A model generated the notes under the pieces. The model was not told where the DNA came from. It was given only the letters and a program-made list of their open reading frames with translations, and did not search any database. From assembly GCA_902500775.1 (NCBI GenBank), contig CABVRZ010000041.1:1-40613 (forward strand): a stretch of 40,613 nt of DNA, given 5' to 3'. Source of the stretch: an uncultured Nitrospira sp. Lineage in GTDB: Bacteria > Nitrospirota > Nitrospiria > Nitrospirales > Nitrospiraceae. The stretch's first letter is position 1. Every line of letters begins with the position of its first letter. This document shows, piece after piece, positions 25,575 to 34,089 of this stretch. The translations under genes were made by a program, and so were the position numbers.

Positions 25575-25743
25575 TCCGATCGACAATCTTAGCCGAGATT
25601 GGTCCTGCCCTTGCACATCCGCTATATTCGAGACCGCAAAGAGGCCAAAACTGTTGCATAATGCGCCAGGAAGGAAGGGTTGTTCCGTGGCAATTTGGGG
25701 CAATGAAGTCTTGTCCCACCCTCTACCATGTTTGGAGGAATCA

Positions 25744-27123
25744 ATGACAGAAGATTGGGGCGCGATCCTCGTCGTGGATGATGATGCGGATATGCGGGAA
25801 CTGGCCTATGACATGCTGAAAGACCGCGGGCATCAGGTGATGATGGCTGGAAGCGGAGAAGAGGCGCTGAAACGATTGGGCGAGGAAGACTATGCCGTGG
25901 TCCTGACCGATCTCCGCATGAAAGGGATGGAAGGGATCGAGTTGTTAGCGGAAATCAAACGCAGATATCCCGATATCAACGTCATTCTCATGACGGCATT
26001 CGGATCGGTGGAGACGGCAGTTGAAGCGATGAAACACGGCGCCAGCGATTACCTGACGAAGCCCGTGAAGAAAGATGACCTGGTTCGCGTGATTGAGCGG
26101 GTCGTTCGCGAGGCGTCCTTGCGTCGGGAGGTGAGCCGACTCAGAAAAGAAGTACATAAAGAATATAGCTTTCATCAGATCCTGGGAAAGAGTAAGGCAA
26201 TCCAGGGGGTCTTCGATCTTATTCGCCGGGTGGCCGATAGTCCGACCAATGTTCTGATTACCGGAGAGAGCGGCACAGGGAAGGAATTGGTGGCGAAGGC
26301 GATTCACTTCAATAGCGACCGAAAAGATGCGCCATTTATTCCGGTCAATTGCGCAGCCATTCCAGAACAACTGCTAGAGAGCGAGCTTTTTGGACATATG
26401 CGCGGTGCCTTTACCGACGCGAAGCTCGACAAGCGGGGCTTGTTTGAAGAGGCGCAGAAGGGTACCTTGTTTCTCGATGAGATCAGCGAGCTGCCGCTCA
26501 TGCTCCAAGCCAAGATTCTCCGCGCGATTCAGGAGAAGGAGATCAGGCGGGTGGGTGCGACGAAGCCCATCTCGGTGGATGTCCGAATCATCGCGGCCAC
26601 CAACCTGAATCTCAATGAGGAAGTGAAGGGTAAACGATTTCGTGAGGATCTCTACTATCGACTTAATGTCATCGAACTGAAGTTGCCACCGCTTCGAGAG
26701 CGGCGGGAGGATATCCCGCTCCTGGTGGATGCCTTTCTCAAGAAATGTGGCAATGCGCGTGGGAAAGACGTGAAGGGGGTAAGCGAGGCGGCACTGGCGA
26801 TGTTGATAGACTATGCCTGGCCCGGCAATGTGCGGGAACTCGAGAACGTGATTGAACGGGCGGTGACGCTGAGCCGTGGCGAGAAAATTTTGCCGGATGA
26901 TTTGCCTCCGGCGGTTCAGGGGGCGCGAGGAGATCGGCGTGTGTTGGACGAAGCGGCCGAACAAACTTTACCCTTACACGAGCTTGAGAAGGAGTACATC
27001 AAGAAGGTTCTCGAAAAGACAGGCGGCAACAAGTATCAGGCCGCTCATGCCCTTGGAATCGATCGAAAGACCTTGTATCGTAAACTCGCCGAAATCGAAG
27101 GTAAGCCTCACCCAGAGGAATAG
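25744..27123 (+). CDS. NtrC-family sigma54-dependent response regulator (GAFTDA variant)
   Basis: Enhancer-binding activator of 459 residues. The receiver domain (about 7-120) has the acidic pair VDDDAD, phosphorylatable Asp56 and the Lys in TKPVKK. The AAA+ domain has Walker A GESGTGKE, Walker B GTLFLDEI and the arginine-finger region. The sigma54-contacting loop is GAFTDA (221-226) rather than GAFTGA. A Fis-type helix-turn-helix lies at the C-terminus (GGNKYQAAHALGIDRKTLYR). A frame begins at 25471, but the ATG at 25744 with GGAGGAATCA upstream is the real start. It is followed after 68 bases by its probable cognate kinase, so the pair forms an operon. Targets may include the sigma54 promoters downstream. 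Confidence 0.94.
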   Translation: MTEDWGAILVVDDDADMRELAYDMLKDRGHQVMMAGSGEEALKRLGEEDYAVVLTDLRMKGMEGIELLAEIKRRYPDINVILMTAFGSVETAVEAMKHGASDYLTKPVKKDDLVRVIERVVREASLRREVSRLRKEVHKEYSFHQILGKSKAIQGVFDLIRRVADSPTNVLITGESGTGKELVAKAIHFNSDRKDAPFIPVNCAAIPEQLLESELFGHMRGAFTDAKLDKRGLFEEAQKGTLFLDEISELPLMLQAKILRAIQEKEIRRVGATKPISVDVRIIAATNLNLNEEVKGKRFREDLYYRLNVIELKLPPLRERREDIPLLVDAFLKKCGNARGKDVKGVSEAALAMLIDYAWPGNVRELENVIERAVTLSRGEKILPDDLPPAVQGARGDRRVLDEAAEQTLPLHELEKEYIKKVLEKTGGNKYQAAHALGIDRKTLYRKLAEIEGKPHPEE

Positions 27124-27191: not shown

Positions 27192-29498
27192 ATGAAGGAT
27201 GTCGACCGTCTCGCCATGCGTGTTGTGCATTGGGCGATCCCACTTCTCACGATCGGGATCTTTGTCTTCGACATCCTGACTCCCGTGGGAATTGCCGTAT
27301 CGATTCTCTATGTCATTCCCCTACTGCTCACGGTGTTTAAGTCGGAGGCACACGAATCGCTTTATTTTTGTGGCCTTGCCACCAGCCTCCTCTGGCTCGG
27401 ATTGTTTCTCAAGCCTCCGGGTAGTTCGCTCCCGTATGGCGTGCTCAATCGGACGTTGGGAACCTCCGTTTTGTGGATCTTAGCCCTGGGACTGATCCAC
27501 TTAAGACGGCTGCAACATGAAGCAGTACAGGCCGAACGAGCGTTGATGTCGGAACGTGTGGAGCGAGCCCATGCCGAAGGGTTGATGATGGAAGCGCAAC
27601 AGGCACGGTACGACGCGGATCGAGAGGCCGTTCGTGCCGTCGTCGGTCGTCAAGAAGCGGAAGAGCAACTCCTGGTCAGCCGATTGAGACTGGAAAGCAT
27701 CATTGAATCCGCGATGGATGCGATCATCACCGTGGACGCGGATCAGACAGTTGTGTTGTTCAACCAATCGGCCGAGCAGATGTTCGGCTGTTCCACTCAA
27801 GAGGCAATCGGGCAGCCGCTTGATCGATTCTTGCCCGCTCGGTATCGCGAAGGCCACCGCCACCATATGCGTGAGTTCGGCCAATCCGGCGCGACGAGCC
27901 GGAAGATGGGCAAACTGGGAACGGTGATGGGACTTCGCTCCAACGGAGAAGAGTTTCCGATCGAAGCGGCAATCTCGCATATCGCCGTCGAACATCAGAA
28001 ATACTCTACCGTCATCCTCAGGGACATCACCGACCGCAAGCGGACCGAAGAAGCCCACCAAGAGAGTCAGCGGCAACTCTCAACCCTAATGAGCAATCTC
28101 CCAGGCTTTGTGTATCGCTGCAAGAACGATCGTGACTGGACCTTCGAATATGTCAGCGGGGGCGTGTCCGACCTGACGGGGTACACCGATCAGGAATACC
28201 TCGCGCAACGGATCATCACGTATGGCGACAATACCCATCCAGGTGACCGTGAGCGAGTGTGGCAAGAAATTCAGGCAGCGGTGGCGCAGCATCGCCCCTA
28301 CGAAACGACGTACCGCATCCTCACCAAGCTGGGGGAGGTCAAGTCGGTTTGGGAACGGGGTGAAGGGGTTTACACAACGGACGGGACCCTGAATTATCTA
28401 GAAGGATTTGTGACTGACATCACGGAACGGAAGCGAGCCGAGCACCTACTGCGACAAAGCGAAGAGCGATACCGGCGTTTAATCGCCATTTCGCCCTACG
28501 CCATTCTGGTGAACAGAGGCGATCGCATCCTCTTCGCGAATGACCAGGCGATCAAACTGTTCGGTGCGGTGAAGGCTGAGGAGATTCTGGGGAAACCGGT
28601 CATGGACCTGTTCCATCCTGAGTATCACTCAGCGATTCGAGAGCGCATCCATGAATTGGTGGAAGGTCGCGTACAAGTACCCGTGCTCGAGGAGAGAATC
28701 ATCACCTTGAGTGGTAAGTCGGTAGATGCAGAAGTCAGCGTGGCGCGATTCGTGGACGAAGAAGGTCCGGCGATCTTGGTTATGCTCCGCGATATCAGCG
28801 AACGAAAGCGATTGCAGGAGCAGTTGCGAAGAACAGAGCGGATTGCTGAGCTCGGAACACTCGCCTCCGGCATGGCCCACGAAATCGGGACCCCGATGAA
28901 CGTCATTCTTGGCCGGGCCGAATATTTGATGGATCGCGTTACGGAGGAGCCGATCAAGAAAGGCCTCCAAACCATCATTACCCAAGTCGAGCGAATTACA
29001 CGGGTGATGAACCAGCTACTCACCTTTGCACGGCGGAAAGCTCCGGAGCGCGTCCAGCTCGATCTGAAGCAAGTGATTGAAGACAGCCTCGAGATGTTTC
29101 ACGAACGTCTTGCACGCAATCAGATTCAGGTTGAGTTGTTGTTGGCGGATCCATGTCCCATGGTCTTGGCCGATGCGGACCAGATGATCCAAGTCATGAT
29201 CAACCTCGTCATGAACGCCGTGCACGCGATGCCGGATGGTGGGACGCTCCATGTCGGTCTTGCCGCTGAACCACAGATGGTAAAACTCACCATTGCGGAT
29301 ACCGGACATGGGATTCCACGCGAAGTGATCAAGAAGATCTTCGAGCCGTTCTTTACGACGAAGGAATTCGGCCAAGGGACGGGATTAGGGCTGACAGTCG
29401 TCAAGGGCATCATCGACGAACACCAGGGTTCCATCGCCGTTGAGAGTCAGGAAGGAAAGGGAACGACATTCACCATTGTTTTGCCCAAGAGTGAATAG
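27192..29498 (+). CDS. Membrane PAS-domain sensor histidine kinase (NtrB-like)
   Basis: Kinase of 768 residues. The N-terminal 110 residues form about three to four membrane helices, followed by a coiled coil rich in Glu and Arg. Three PAS domains follow: the first begins SIIESAMDAIITVD, the second has the PAS-3-like WTFEYVSGGVSDLTGY, and the third begins LIAISPYAILVN. Each ends in D-I-T/S-x-R-K-R. The dimerisation box LGTLASGMAHEIGTPMNVIL holds the phospho-acceptor His563. The ATPase domain has NLVMNAVHAM, ADTGHGIP and GTGLGLTVV. A TTG at 27141 is in frame, but the ATG at 27192 gives a normal membrane start, with only a weak ribosome-binding site. It likely phosphorylates the regulator encoded just upstream. 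Confidence 0.92.
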   Translation: MKDVDRLAMRVVHWAIPLLTIGIFVFDILTPVGIAVSILYVIPLLLTVFKSEAHESLYFCGLATSLLWLGLFLKPPGSSLPYGVLNRTLGTSVLWILALGLIHLRRLQHEAVQAERALMSERVERAHAEGLMMEAQQARYDADREAVRAVVGRQEAEEQLLVSRLRLESIIESAMDAIITVDADQTVVLFNQSAEQMFGCSTQEAIGQPLDRFLPARYREGHRHHMREFGQSGATSRKMGKLGTVMGLRSNGEEFPIEAAISHIAVEHQKYSTVILRDITDRKRTEEAHQESQRQLSTLMSNLPGFVYRCKNDRDWTFEYVSGGVSDLTGYTDQEYLAQRIITYGDNTHPGDRERVWQEIQAAVAQHRPYETTYRILTKLGEVKSVWERGEGVYTTDGTLNYLEGFVTDITERKRAEHLLRQSEERYRRLIAISPYAILVNRGDRILFANDQAIKLFGAVKAEEILGKPVMDLFHPEYHSAIRERIHELVEGRVQVPVLEERIITLSGKSVDAEVSVARFVDEEGPAILVMLRDISERKRLQEQLRRTERIAELGTLASGMAHEIGTPMNVILGRAEYLMDRVTEEPIKKGLQTIITQVERITRVMNQLLTFARRKAPERVQLDLKQVIEDSLEMFHERLARNQIQVELLLADPCPMVLADADQMIQVMINLVMNAVHAMPDGGTLHVGLAAEPQMVKLTIADTGHGIPREVIKKIFEPFFTTKEFGQGTGLGLTVVKGIIDEHQGSIAVESQEGKGTTFTIVLPKSE

Positions 29499-30186: not shown

Positions 30187-31566
30187 TTGCCAGACTTGGA
30201 ATCCCCCGGCATACCACCGCTCAATGATCCCGTCATTGCTGCACGAATTGAGGCCATCAAACAGTTGGCGCAGGGGCTGTCTGATCGGGTGGCCGTCATG
30301 GATCAATCGTTCAACGTCGTCTACGCGAACGAAGCAGCGTGGTCTGTGCGCAAGAGCACAGATACTCCACGGACCCATGCCAAGTGCTATGAAGCCTTTG
30401 CACAGCGGACCGACCCCTGTGGAGCCTGTCCCGCGATCAAGGTATTCGAGGCTCCGGATGTTCAGTGCGTATCCTGTTCGGGAGGAGGGGACGGCACGGC
30501 CTGTGGGATGCAGCAAGCCTTTCCATTAACGGATACACAGGGATTGGTCACCTCCATGTTGGTGCTCTTCCAACCGACCTCGAAACCTGTTGGAGCTGCC
30601 ACAGCTGCGAACAGCTGTCCCGCACCTCTTGTGGATGGTCTTGGTGACCTGATCGGTCGAAGTCCGATCATGCAGCAGCTCTTCGACATGACACGTCTTG
30701 TTGCAGAGAGTTCCGCGACCGTCCTCATCCAAGGTGAGAGCGGAACGGGTAAAGAGCTTCTGGCGAAAACGATTCATGCGCTCAGTCCCAGACGGGATCG
30801 ACCCTTTGTCGTGGTTGACTGCGGCTCATTGCCGGAGACGTTACTTGAAAGCGAACTGTTTGGGCATGTGAAGGGAGCGTTTACCGGGGCAGTGGCGAAC
30901 AAACGGGGTTTATTTGATGAGGCTGACGGAGGCACGATCTTCCTTGATGAGATTGCCGATACCACGCCGACCTTTCAAGCCAAGTTGCTTCGTGTCCTCC
31001 AGGAGAGTGAGATCAAGCCGGTGGGTGGAACACGCACGGTCAAGATCCATGTGCGTGTCATCTCAGCCTCAAACAAGGATCTGACGGAACTCGTGAAAGC
31101 CAAAATGTTTCGACAGGACCTGTACTATCGATTGGCTGTGCTGCCTCTGTATTTACCGGCTCTACGGGAACGGCGAGAGGATATCCCATTGCTTGTCCGG
31201 CATTTCGTCGCGGGGTCTTGTGCACGACATCATCAGCCGCTGCGATACGTGGATGAGCGGGCTTTGCGGTTGTTACGTGACGCTCCTTGGCCGGGGAATG
31301 TCCGACAGTTGCAGCACTATATCGAACGGGCCGTGGTGACGACGGCTGGCCCATCGCTGGTGTGTCAGGATCTTCTAGACCAGTCCCTTGAGGTAGAGGA
31401 CGAAGGTTTACGATCCGCGTCGCGTGGGGTGGTGGCCCAGACGGAGCGCTCCCGGATCGTTGATGCCCTGCAGAAGACCGCGGGAAACCGTTTGAGAGCA
31501 GCCAAGTTGCTCAGAATCAGCCGGGCGAGTCTCTATAACAAACTTCGAGCCTACAGCATCGAATAG
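30187..31566 (+). CDS. Sigma54-dependent activator with a cysteine-rich PAS sensor domain
   Basis: Enhancer-binding protein of 459 residues with no receiver domain. Residues about 20-140 form a PAS-like domain with six cysteines: Cys67, Cys78, Cys81, Cys94, Cys97 and Cys106. These include C-x2-C-P and C-x2-C pairs, suited to binding a metal, Fe-S cluster or haem, or to thiol redox sensing. The AAA+ domain has GESGTGKE, an intact sigma54-contact GAFTGA (230-235) and GTIFLDEI. The C-terminal Fis-type helix-turn-helix contains [20 protein letters not shown]. The start is a TTG at 30187; no ATG or GTG is available in frame between it and the upstream stop at 30142. It probably activates the sigma54 promoter at 32068, about 500 bases downstream. 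Confidence 0.92.
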
Positions 31567-32067
31567 GATCGGTTGTTCCCTTGTCCACGTCCTTTCCTGG
31601 GTCGTGGCCCTCTGCAGAGTGGGATCATCTCATCTGGGATCCAGAATCTTCCAGTCCGGCCAGTACTGCTGACTCTTCTCACCGATCGGATGGATTTCAT
31701 TTATTGCATGCTTCCCTGATGCGATCGAAGAAGATTGTCCACATCGTTCCGAAATGATTCCGCCTCCATAAATCTGGATGCACTACTCGGGTGACATGGG
31801 GATAGGCTTGCCTTCAACGTGTGGAGCCTCCATCGATCGAACTGCAACAGGTTCATCTGCCCCTTTTCTCCTCCTCATTCCTGAACAAACGTCTATCCGT
31901 GTGGACAGCATAAGCGAGCGATATTTTGGGAAATGAGGAAATCTTGTCCGACACTGTCTAACTAAGTGGAATTTCCCGTGGAGCAGGGGCTGATCAGAGG
32001 ACCGATGGGCGAGGTCCATCTTCGCGCCTGATGCGTCAATGGTTCATTGATGCGTGACAAACAAGGA
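31567..32067. other. Non-coding spacer upstream of the sigma54 promoter
   Basis: No credible gene. It holds a possible activator-binding pair: CCGTGTGGACAG (31897-31908) and, inverted, TTGTCCGACACTG (31944-31956). These lie about 140-200 bases upstream of the predicted start at 32094, a normal distance for enhancer sites of sigma54 activators. Confidence 0.4.
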
Positions 32068-32083
32068 TGGCACGCCAGTTGCT
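32068..32083 (+). promoter_or_regulatory. Consensus sigma54 promoter
   Basis: TGGCACG (32068-32074), four bases, TTGCT (32079-32083). This is a perfect match to TGGCACG-N4-TTGCW, with ten bases between the GG (32069-32070) and GC (32081-32082). Transcription should start near 32094. It lies about 500 bases downstream of a sigma54 activator gene on the same strand. Confidence 0.85.
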
Positions 32084-32093
32084 GAATAGCTGA

Positions 32094-32242
32094 GTAACAC
32101 AGAGGGCTCGATCTTTCTGTGGGCTGGGTGGTGATAAGCCCTGTTGCCACCCAGCACTGTCCACCCGAATGTGAGCGGTTGTCCCGACCGCCACGTGTCA
32201 AAGATGAGGGGGTCACAGGTGAGAGTGGCCCCCTCATTTTTT
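32094..32242 (+). ncRNA. Predicted sigma54-dependent structured small RNA (about 149 nt)
   Basis: Bounded by a consensus sigma54 promoter and a strong intrinsic terminator. Between them are a perfect nine-base-pair stem (GCTGGGTGG at 32123-32131 with CCACCCAGC at 32147-32155) and a second stem (GTGAGCGGT at 32171-32179 with ACCGCCAC at 32187-32194, one bulged A). The terminator hairpin follows. No open frame with a ribosome-binding site fits inside. The single-stranded 5' part (AGAGGGCTCGATC) or the terminator loop (AGGTGAGA) could pair with mRNA. It could instead be an attenuated leader for the genes downstream. It matches no RNA family known to me. Confidence 0.6.
32204..32242 (+). terminator. 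Strong intrinsic terminator of the predicted small RNA
   Basis: A thirteen-base-pair stem with one G-T pair (32204-32216 with 32225-32237), an eight-base loop and a run of six T residues (32237-32242). Confidence 0.88.
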
Positions 32243-32330
32243 CTCTGTGGGCAAGACGGATTACAGATCACCGCTGGGCGACGGTGAACGGCGTGTGGTC
32301 CTGACACTGCAATGTGTTACGGATCAGCGG

Positions 32331-32528
32331 ATGGGACCGCTGAACAAACGGTTTTTGAACATCAAGGACGCAGTCGCCTGTTTTGGCCCGGCTGCGCTGA
32401 TGCGCAGGGCCAAGACGAAGCAGGTGATCCGCGCGGATGGAACCTCACCGTCAGACACGATGATCGAGCAGATAACAATGCTATTCCCTATAGGAGTTGG
32501 TGGTGCATCTCTCCATCGCGATTCCTGA
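32331..32528 (+). CDS. Doubtful short ORF between terminator and next gene
   Basis: The frame stays open from a GTG at 32247, directly in the terminator T tract, to 32528. An internal ATG at 32331 would give 65 residues. Neither start has a good ribosome-binding site, and the end overlaps the next gene by 26 bases. It has no recognised motif. It may be a non-coding leader. Confidence 0.25.
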   Translation: MGPLNKRFLNIKDAVACFGPAALMRRAKTKQVIRADGTSPSDTMIEQITMLFPIGVGGASLHRDS

Positions 32529-33009
32529 AGCACAAGTTATTGACGCTCCGACGCTGTTGAGGCTCATCCGGAAGGCGCCTGCCTGGGACGTTGAGGCCGA
32601 TGAAGAGGGGGCCGAATACGTGGCGTTCTTTGACGACTTTACGAGGTCTGTGGAGACCGTTGCGCGAATGATTGAGGAAGCCTGGGACCTGCACGATGTC
32701 CACATCACTCTCGAAGGTAGATCCGTCGTGAGCCGGACCAATTTCTATGCTGCCCTCCGCTGCTATCAGGAGAGCCTGAGTGCTCAGGACGCGAAGGCCT
32801 ATTGCCTTCAGCAGGCGGAAAACGTTGGCGCGGAGAGAGGATGTCCTGAGCAGTCGTGCCTGTCTCACTGCCGGTTTATGTGTTCACGGTGTGTAGGACT
32901 GTTACGCGATCAAGGCGCAGCTCCGATTCCGAGTCAGCTCTTGGAAGTAGCGCGCCGTGCGGAAGTGGACTGGTGTCCGAACCTGCGCGTTGCGGACGTG
33001 AACGTGTGA
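32503..33009 (+). CDS. Hypothetical protein with a cysteine-rich C-terminal part
   Basis: Protein of 168 residues from a GTG at 32503, six bases after AGGAG (32492-32496); TTG and GTG codons just upstream are alternatives. The N-terminal 100 residues are a soluble acidic domain. The last third holds a cluster C-x4-C-x3-C-x3-C-x2-C (GCPEQSCLSHCRFMCSRC) and one more Cys near the end, suggesting a metal site. No signal peptide. It follows the predicted sigma54 small RNA, so read-through of that terminator could control it. Not recognised. Confidence 0.7.
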   Translation: MHLSIAIPEAQVIDAPTLLRLIRKAPAWDVEADEEGAEYVAFFDDFTRSVETVARMIEEAWDLHDVHITLEGRSVVSRTNFYAALRCYQESLSAQDAKAYCLQQAENVGAERGCPEQSCLSHCRFMCSRCVGLLRDQGAAPIPSQLLEVARRAEVDWCPNLRVADVNV

Positions 33010-33123
33010 GTGGTCGGTCGAGGGGTTGAGCAAGCCAGATGAGGTGCTTGCGATCGGATACTGTCAGTTGATTGCTCGAAGGAGGGCCGTGCTCCTCGAG
33101 GCGTAACCATGAGGGAGGATATC

Positions 33124-34089
33124 ATGCAGGTTGAGAAGAGCAGGAGGAACATTCGAGTCTGGTCTGTTGCGGTGTCACTCGCCGCGGTGTTCGCTCTTGG
33201 AGCACCGGTACTGAGCAGCCCAGCGCTTGCCGCCGCCAATCCACATGTGAGCGAGGCAGTCGAGCAAGCCAAAGGTGCCGCGTCACATGGGCAGCAGGGA
33301 CATGCCGACGCCTGTGTCCAGCGCGCGGAGGAAGCCCTTAAGCATGCACGAGCGGCTGGAGTGAAAAACCCGCATGTGGATATGGGCGTTATACATCTGA
33401 TGGAAGCGGTGCAACACGGTAAGGCTGGGCATGCGGATGCGTGCACCGAACATGCCGACGGTGCGTCTACGCATTTGACCGAAGTCTTAACTGAAGGTAC
33501 GACGTCAACAGGGAACCGCGTGTTCTTTCGTGGAGGCTATGGCGAGATGCTGAGCGATCGAGCAGGCGAGTTTATCACCGACGTGCATGGTGGACTTGGG
33601 GGTGGGCCTAAAAATACTGGGACCGGCGGCTATTATATAGGCGGTGGAGCGGAGCTCATGGTCACGAAGGACCTGTGGGGTATGATGCCTGGCGTCGCGC
33701 TCGTTGGAGAAATCGGATTGGAATTTAAGCGATGGAGTTCCAGCCGTGTCGTGAGTGGAGAAGCTCTGACGCCTGTTAGTGATCTGACTCTAGCCAAGGT
33801 GCAGATGACCATGTTGACTGCAAGCGTGGCACCCAAGTTGAAGTTCAGGCAGGGGACCGACTTCCAGCCTTGGATTATTCCTGCTGGACTGGATTTCCAC
33901 GTGATCAGCCCAACTTCGAGTCAGGTTAATTATTTGGACATCGGGGTTCAGTTCGGCGGCGGCGCTGAGTTTAGGGTATGGAAGGAATTATGGCTTGGTC
34001 TCGACAGCCGGTTCCATCTGGCCTCCAACCAAACCAACACGGTGAACAATTACTGGACCGCTGGTATCTATGGGGCGATCGGGTTCTAG
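33124..34089 (+). CDS. SmbP-like metal-binding repeats fused to an outer-membrane beta-barrel
   Basis: Exported protein of 321 residues with a signal peptide ending in ALA-A (about residue 37). Residues about 40-125 consist of two repeats, each beginning NPHV, continuing EAV-x-H-G-x-x-GHADAC and ending with His-rich helix segments. This is the pattern of SmbP, the small periplasmic copper/nickel-binding helical protein first described in Nitrosomonas, here with an added Cys in each HADAC. The remainder (about 140-321) is a beta-barrel with alternating aromatic/glycine strands (GGYYIGGGAEL, GIYGAIGF terminal Phe), typical of outer-membrane proteins. The ATG at 33124 has GGGAGG five bases upstream; the ATG at 33109 has none. 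Two hairpins end the unit. Confidence 0.82.
   Translation: MQVEKSRRNIRVWSVAVSLAAVFALGAPVLSSPALAAANPHVSEAVEQAKGAASHGQQGHADACVQRAEEALKHARAAGVKNPHVDMGVIHLMEAVQHGKAGHADACTEHADGASTHLTEVLTEGTTSTGNRVFFRGGYGEMLSDRAGEFITDVHGGLGGGPKNTGTGGYYIGGGAELMVTKDLWGMMPGVALVGEIGLEFKRWSSSRVVSGEALTPVSDLTLAKVQMTMLTASVAPKLKFRQGTDFQPWIIPAGLDFHVISPTSSQVNYLDIGVQFGGGAEFRVWKELWLGLDSRFHLASNQTNTVNNYWTAGIYGAIGF

Follow-up and report, generated by a model that had tools for sequence, protein, structure and literature searches.

A conserved structured RNA with a predicted sigma54 promoter and a twin-dyad enhancer in comammox Nitrospira

Our analysis confirms that a conserved structured element of about 150 bases, predicted to be driven by sigma54, is real. 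It lies in a window of 40,613 nucleotides, the whole stretch of DNA analysed, from an uncultured Nitrospira sp. (GCA_902500775.1, contig CABVRZ010000041.1). We interpret the element as a terminated 5' leader, sigma54-dependent, enhancer-controlled and releasing a short stable RNA, that belongs to a lineage of comammox Nitrospira, and we place the probability of this reading at roughly 0.6. The RNA probably contributes to the regulation of a small group of metal-related genes. The features of the locus are as follows:

30187 to 31566, forward strand: gene of the PAS-Cys sigma54 activator, an enhancer-binding protein of 459 aa (PF00158, E 3.6e-68; PF02954, Fis-type HTH)
31890 to 31908, forward strand: enhancer dyad 1, CGTCTATCCGTGTGGACAG (GTCYA-N6-TRGAC), positioned at -177 to -191 in the majority of family promoters
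31955 to 31973, forward strand: enhancer dyad 2, TGTCTAACTAAGTGGAATT, present in nearly every family promoter, at -112 to -116
32068 to 32083, forward strand: sigma54 promoter TGGCACGCCAGTTGCT (GG-N10-GC), by sequence match, with GG/GC kept in relatives
32094 to 32245, forward strand: structured RNA of about 150 nt, from the predicted start to the end of the T tract, by fold and covariance model
32098 to 32121, forward strand: hairpin H1, by fold, with two-sided changes in 4/7 consensus pairs
32123 to 32155, forward strand: hairpin H2, with a conserved GCCCT in its loop, by fold, with two-sided changes in 8/12 consensus pairs
about 32167 to 32199, forward strand: hairpin H3, GUGAGCGG...CCGCCAC, near-invariant, by fold, with two-sided changes in 2/8 pairs
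32200 to 32242, forward strand: terminator hairpin H4, with the highly conserved loop AGGUGAGA, followed by the T tract, by fold, with 96% of cells paired
32268 to 32528, forward strand: C-terminal remnant of a 2OG-Fe(II)/HalD-like oxygenase gene, by tblastn (residues 197-282 of a 282-aa relative)
32497 to 33009, forward strand: gene of a Cys-rich 170-aa protein, the first downstream operon gene that is intact in the window and a conserved neighbour in 29 loci
33109 to 34089, forward strand: gene of a protein with an SMBP domain and a beta-barrel (PF16785, E 1.7e-21), a conserved neighbour

Within the window, TGGCACGCCAGTTGCT is the sole zero-mismatch match to TGGCACNNNNNTTGCW, the sigma54 consensus, and the spacing from its -12 element gives a predicted start at about 32094. 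The first-pass annotation had proposed this sigma54 site (32068-32083), a start at 32094 and a terminator reaching 32242, all of which are in the sequence as claimed. The GG-N10-GC signature is kept in 37/37 loci with complete 5' ends, and the promoter lies 23-26 nt before the start of the RNA model in all but one of them. RpoN was found in 6/6 Nitrospira genomes with its Pfam model (PF04552). The marks of a sigma54-dependent, enhancer-controlled transcript, namely a GG-N10-GC promoter, enhancer sites, RpoN and an activator with GAFTGA, are thus all present.

The covariance model matches the window RNA at 32093-32245 with 156 bits, and the fold of 32094-32245 reaches -79.9 kcal/mol, compared with -51.2 +/- 3.9 kcal/mol in dinucleotide shuffles (z -7.4). 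Where the first-pass annotation had counted two hairpins, three (H1-H3) precede the terminator in the fold; the terminator itself stands. The H4 stem (32200-32241) overlaps the T6 tract at 32237-32242, and a generic terminator scan of the window did not report H4, though it is visible in the fold, probably because its long stem extends into the T tract. Sequence conservation in the 36-copy alignment resides in the GCCCT loop of H2, the AGGUGAGA loop of the terminator and the H3 stem. The T tract after the GC-rich H4 hairpin is conserved in nearly all copies, and most copies, folded individually, give a closely similar series of hairpins.

Both the conservation and the covariation of the RNA are far beyond chance. 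The 36 distinct copies, which have a mean pair identity of 74%, were aligned with MAFFT, blind to structure; in this alignment 94.2% of cells pair, and two-sided compensatory changes are seen at 17/40 base pairs (75 cells). Column shuffles gave 10.1 pairs and 24.8 cells, and slid partners 4-8 pairs and 5-18 cells. Outside the consensus, mutual information in the same alignment revealed no coherent extra helix and no covariation-supported antiterminator.

The element is confined to one genus in the genomes searched. By blastn it was found in 16/59 genomes, all of the same genus and including the window's own, and in 0/24 genomes from other genera. A covariance model built from 14 copies matches 42/79 genomes of the genus and gave no match outside it among 246 genomes of the phylum. 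Full-length copies number 36, and the remaining matches are truncated or retain mainly or only the terminator hairpin. The first-pass annotation had named a lack of conserved promoter, stems and terminator among related genomes as grounds for refutation; this check was run and did not refute the element. The window's genome carries a second copy at 81% identity (G000, contig 46, by blastn), where a locus of activator, RNA and operon (L051) has an apparently intact oxygenase gene.

AMO subunit A or C is encoded in 41/42 of the RNA-bearing genomes, which, to judge from these genes, are comammox Nitrospira; in the one other, a MAG (G073), no amo was seen. The RNA is absent from 21 amo-bearing genomes and from 16 genomes without amo among the 79 of the genus. 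The association of RNA with amo (Fisher p 1e-5) does not count as separate evidence, since the RNA-bearing lineage forms one clade in the activator tree. All type I RNA loci cluster in this tree, together with one locus that has no RNA on the available contig, and the RNA therefore probably arose once, in one comammox lineage that includes UW-LDO-01.

The activator gene stops at 31566, which leaves 502 bp to the promoter, in agreement with the roughly 500 bases given at first pass; the histidine kinase gene ends at 29498. The proposed adjacency of activator and RNA gained support from the comparison: nearly all relatives have the PAS-Cys gene immediately 5' of the RNA locus, and a dedicated twin-dyad enhancer lies next to it. 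These dyads (GTCYA-N6-TRGA) sit at about -180 and -114, with a spacing of 65-66 nt in most loci, and 86 of them occur at two fixed places in 50 upstream regions, where shuffling predicts 0.36. A genome-wide search of 14 genomes returned 14 matches to the twin dyad and none to control patterns; the matches that were placed fall at the RNA locus, before the RNA or before a lone amoC. In the window's genome the twin dyad occurs exactly twice, at both RNA copies. As putative binding sites, the twin dyads link the promoter to its neighbouring activator much more strongly than proximity does by itself.

Another candidate activator is encoded at 25732-27123 of the window, an NtrC-type response regulator whose sigma54 contact loop has GAFTDA where the canonical sequence is GAFTGA. 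This substitution may weaken or alter sigma54 activation by the response regulator. The PAS-Cys protein has the canonical GAFTGA in its translation and appears the likelier sigma54 partner, because it is encoded directly upstream of the enhancer and keeps the contact loop that the response regulator has changed.

The same regulatory sites extend to an ammonia monooxygenase gene. A lone amoC sits between the activator and the RNA in about ten loci, and in eight of them (L060, L069, L074, L079, L081, L083, L085 and L086) it has twin dyads of its own upstream, about 65-66 nt apart. A sigma54-like site is also seen upstream of lone amoC, for example GCGCACAAAGCTTGCT. The amo gene thus appears, from these motifs, to belong to the sigma54 regulon of the activator. 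In one type I locus (L086), and partly in a second (L085), the RNA has been lost except for its terminator hairpin, which is now right behind amoC.

Related arrangements occur beyond the RNA lineage. N. defluvii, N. lenta, N. moscoviensis and others have a sigma54 site at 220-840 nt 3' of the activator gene, and dyad matches of the same form are found downstream of the same activator in nitrite oxidisers. These nitrite-oxidiser sites precede a different RNA (type III), ahead of a multicopper oxidase gene. The activator and its enhancer-promoter predate the window's RNA. Type III RNA is about 85 nt long with an invariant loop, GACCGGCCTCCG, and was recorded at 53 distinct loci in canonical and comammox Nitrospira, such as after 5365 in L139 (N. 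defluvii) and around 13067 in L074; the gene that follows it encodes an MnxG-like multicopper oxidase. In 50/53 copies, GGAGGCCG, the complement of GACCGGCCTCCG, is followed by a start codon and stands as the Shine-Dalgarno sequence of the next gene, a layout that suggests translational control in cis. Rfam gave no match in L139, L115, L116 or L132. Type III and the window RNA share a sigma54 promoter, an enhancer dyad of the same kind, a structured transcript and a position ahead of a gene of the locus; type III differs in its length of about 85 nt, its GACCGGCCTCCG loop with the GGAGGCCG complement, and its presence in canonical nitrite oxidisers as well. A sister lineage (L111, L113, L115, L116 and L119) carries a further RNA, type II, of about 150 nt with activator-linked promoters such as CGGTACAAAGGTTGCT. 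Type II has only the terminator hairpin and its loop in common with the window RNA, and its 5' part is different.

Gene order by tblastn is shared by nearly all loci: PAS histidine kinase, receiver protein, PAS-Cys activator, in some loci amoC, then the RNA and a series of co-directional genes. The genes 3' of the RNA encode F19 (no assigned function), a HalD-like 2OG-Fe(II) oxygenase, the Cys-rich protein, the SMBP/barrel protein, a chlorite-dismutase-like protein and a Rieske protein, and often an MnxG-like multicopper oxidase. The first of them is co-directional in 33/33 loci, with homology starting 17-253 nt after the RNA (median 68), and a co-directional gene nearly always begins at most about 150 nt from the terminator. 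Eight loci lack the oxygenase gene and have the start of the Cys-rich gene 41-42 nt behind the RNA; in many relatives the oxygenase and Cys-rich genes overlap. The identity of the first gene varies between the 2OG oxygenase, F19, Cys-rich and barrel genes, and in the window it is a remnant, the last 86 codons of an oxygenase gene, 23 nt after the RNA. This gene is intact in most relatives, and an intact relative matches HalD with an E of 7e-12. The Cys-rich proteins form a family of 168-170 aa with the motif CPDRSCxSHCxFxCSRC, present in 29 of these loci, and have no match in Pfam or NCBIfam.

At first pass the element had been called either a small RNA or an attenuated leader, and gene spacing (33/33 co-directional, median 68 nt) now favours the second. 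We prefer to read the element as a terminated leader for the 2OG-oxygenase/Cys-rich/SMBP operon rather than as a small RNA that acts in trans alone, because a co-directional gene nearly always follows within about 150 nt, sometimes at 41 nt, and because Hfq was not found. The tightest loci leave no room for a second promoter, and a terminated leader with read-through is therefore favoured. In such a scheme, the PAS-Cys activator would bind the two dyads, which lie some 115 and 180 bp upstream of the GG-N10-GC site, and turn on transcription at about 32094, as suggested by adjacency, conservation and the restriction of the enhancer to this locus. RNA polymerase would then make an RNA of about 150 nt with three hairpins followed by an intrinsic terminator, a structure borne out by covariation. 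Transcription would end at 32242 part of the time, and the 41-150 nt gaps point to read-through into the operon (2OG-Fe oxygenase, Cys-rich, SMBP barrel, Cld-like and Rieske genes). Because the operon and lone amoC share the enhancer code, both may answer a common stress or substrate signal, which might concern redox, metal or nitrogen state. Nothing was found in support of the earlier suggestion that the RNA is redox- or metal-responsive, a suggestion that draws on the PAS domain with its cysteines and on the metal-related genes nearby. The locus resembles terminator-attenuated operon leaders in its promoter, structured leader, intrinsic terminator and co-directional genes, but has a sigma54 promoter and a dedicated enhancer, and an antiterminator helix was not detected. 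Against the leader reading, termination at the conserved H4 and T tract would, if efficient, starve the operon.

That the RNA persists through changes of the first downstream gene would also fit an independent small RNA. A free-standing RNA that acts in trans like those of the Qrr/LuxO system, pairing with distant mRNAs or binding a protein through the GCCCT and AGGUGAGA loops, is a possible, if somewhat unlikely, alternative. It would account for a conserved terminator with a conserved loop, and for an RNA that persists where the first downstream gene has been replaced or has decayed, as in the window. A sigma54-driven RNA beside its activator is a known kind, exemplified by Qrr1 with LuxO: Qrr RNAs are structured, they end in a Rho-independent terminator, and qrr1 adjoins luxO. 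In Vibrio, too, a Qrr RNA is transcribed from a sigma54 promoter with the help of two enhancer-binding proteins (PMC10162802). The window RNA shares with Qrr/LuxO a structured, terminated RNA, a sigma54 promoter and a nearby gene of an enhancer-binding protein, whereas it has no Rfam Qrr match, has an operon at short distance, and is paired with an activator whose N-terminus is PAS-like and Cys-containing instead of a receiver domain.

Three observations weigh against action in trans. A co-directional gene is close behind the RNA in every locus examined, with a gap of 41 nt in several; no copy was found off-locus except the duplicated loci of some genomes, the window's included; and Hfq (PF17209), another point of difference from Qrr/LuxO, was not found in 6/6 Nitrospira genomes (G000, G024, G059, G062, G068 and G091), while five control genomes were positive. 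Hfq-independent small RNAs do exist. Complementarity of the loops to 2OG-oxygenase gene starts showed no excess, in a comparison limited to next-operon starts. The H4 loop (UGAGAG or GUGAGA) has a 6-nt match to codons of the Cys-rich gene in 24/30 loci, with a shorter match in the window's own copy; this match probably reflects shared descent and coding constraint. NrsZ and CrcZ of Pseudomonas are other sigma54-dependent, environment-responsive RNAs under NtrC-family control. Both are treated in a review (PMC9308961). The window RNA is alike in its predicted sigma54 dependence and NtrC-family control, and differs in host, neighbours and structure, with no Rfam match in sequence or structure.

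A broader proposal, which we regard as doubtful, is that the RNA and lone amoC answer one sigma54 circuit that would tune ammonia-oxidation capacity or its metal supply, through sensing by the terminator loop or Hfq-free action in trans, with type III as the older nitrite-oxidiser counterpart. Improbable in our assessment is a signal-sensing leader, either a riboswitch or a protein-dependent antiterminator, in which the terminator loop would be the receptor and sigma54 a second gate. The terminator loop and H3 are conserved beyond the needs of a plain terminator, and the sister lineage keeps the terminator hairpin with a different 5' part, as this proposal would have it. However, no alternative helix is supported by covariation (a protein-dependent switch would leave none), and the varying identity of the first gene is unusual for a metabolite riboswitch. 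That the element is conserved DNA or a small coding gene is scarcely credible: a 61-aa GTG frame does span it in the window, but copy lengths of 151-156 nt vary by 1-5 nt, so that no reading frame is conserved across copies, and this variation, together with the compensatory base-pair changes, contradicts the coding reading, in keeping with the initial view that no credible ORF is present.

The RNA matches no described family, as the first-pass annotation had supposed. Searches of Rfam 15 gave nothing above the gathering cut-off for the RNA, the window as a whole yielding just two tRNAs; with the threshold relaxed to E 5 there were chance-level matches alone, such as animal snoRNA models, and no Qrr match. 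For the RNA family, the enhancer code and the link to lone amoC, neither Rfam nor the openly licensed papers found describe a counterpart; the few of these papers that mention sigma54 regulators in Nitrospira do so for nitrite oxidoreductase or in passing, and none reports an RNA or an amo gene enhancer from comammox bacteria. Overall, the locus constitutes a testable circuit comprising a sensor kinase, a receiver, a PAS-Cys activator, a two-site enhancer, a sigma54 promoter and a new conserved RNA, to which part of the lineage adds a lone amoC under the same enhancer. The control of ammonia-oxidation and copper-related genes in comammox Nitrospira is thereby made directly testable.
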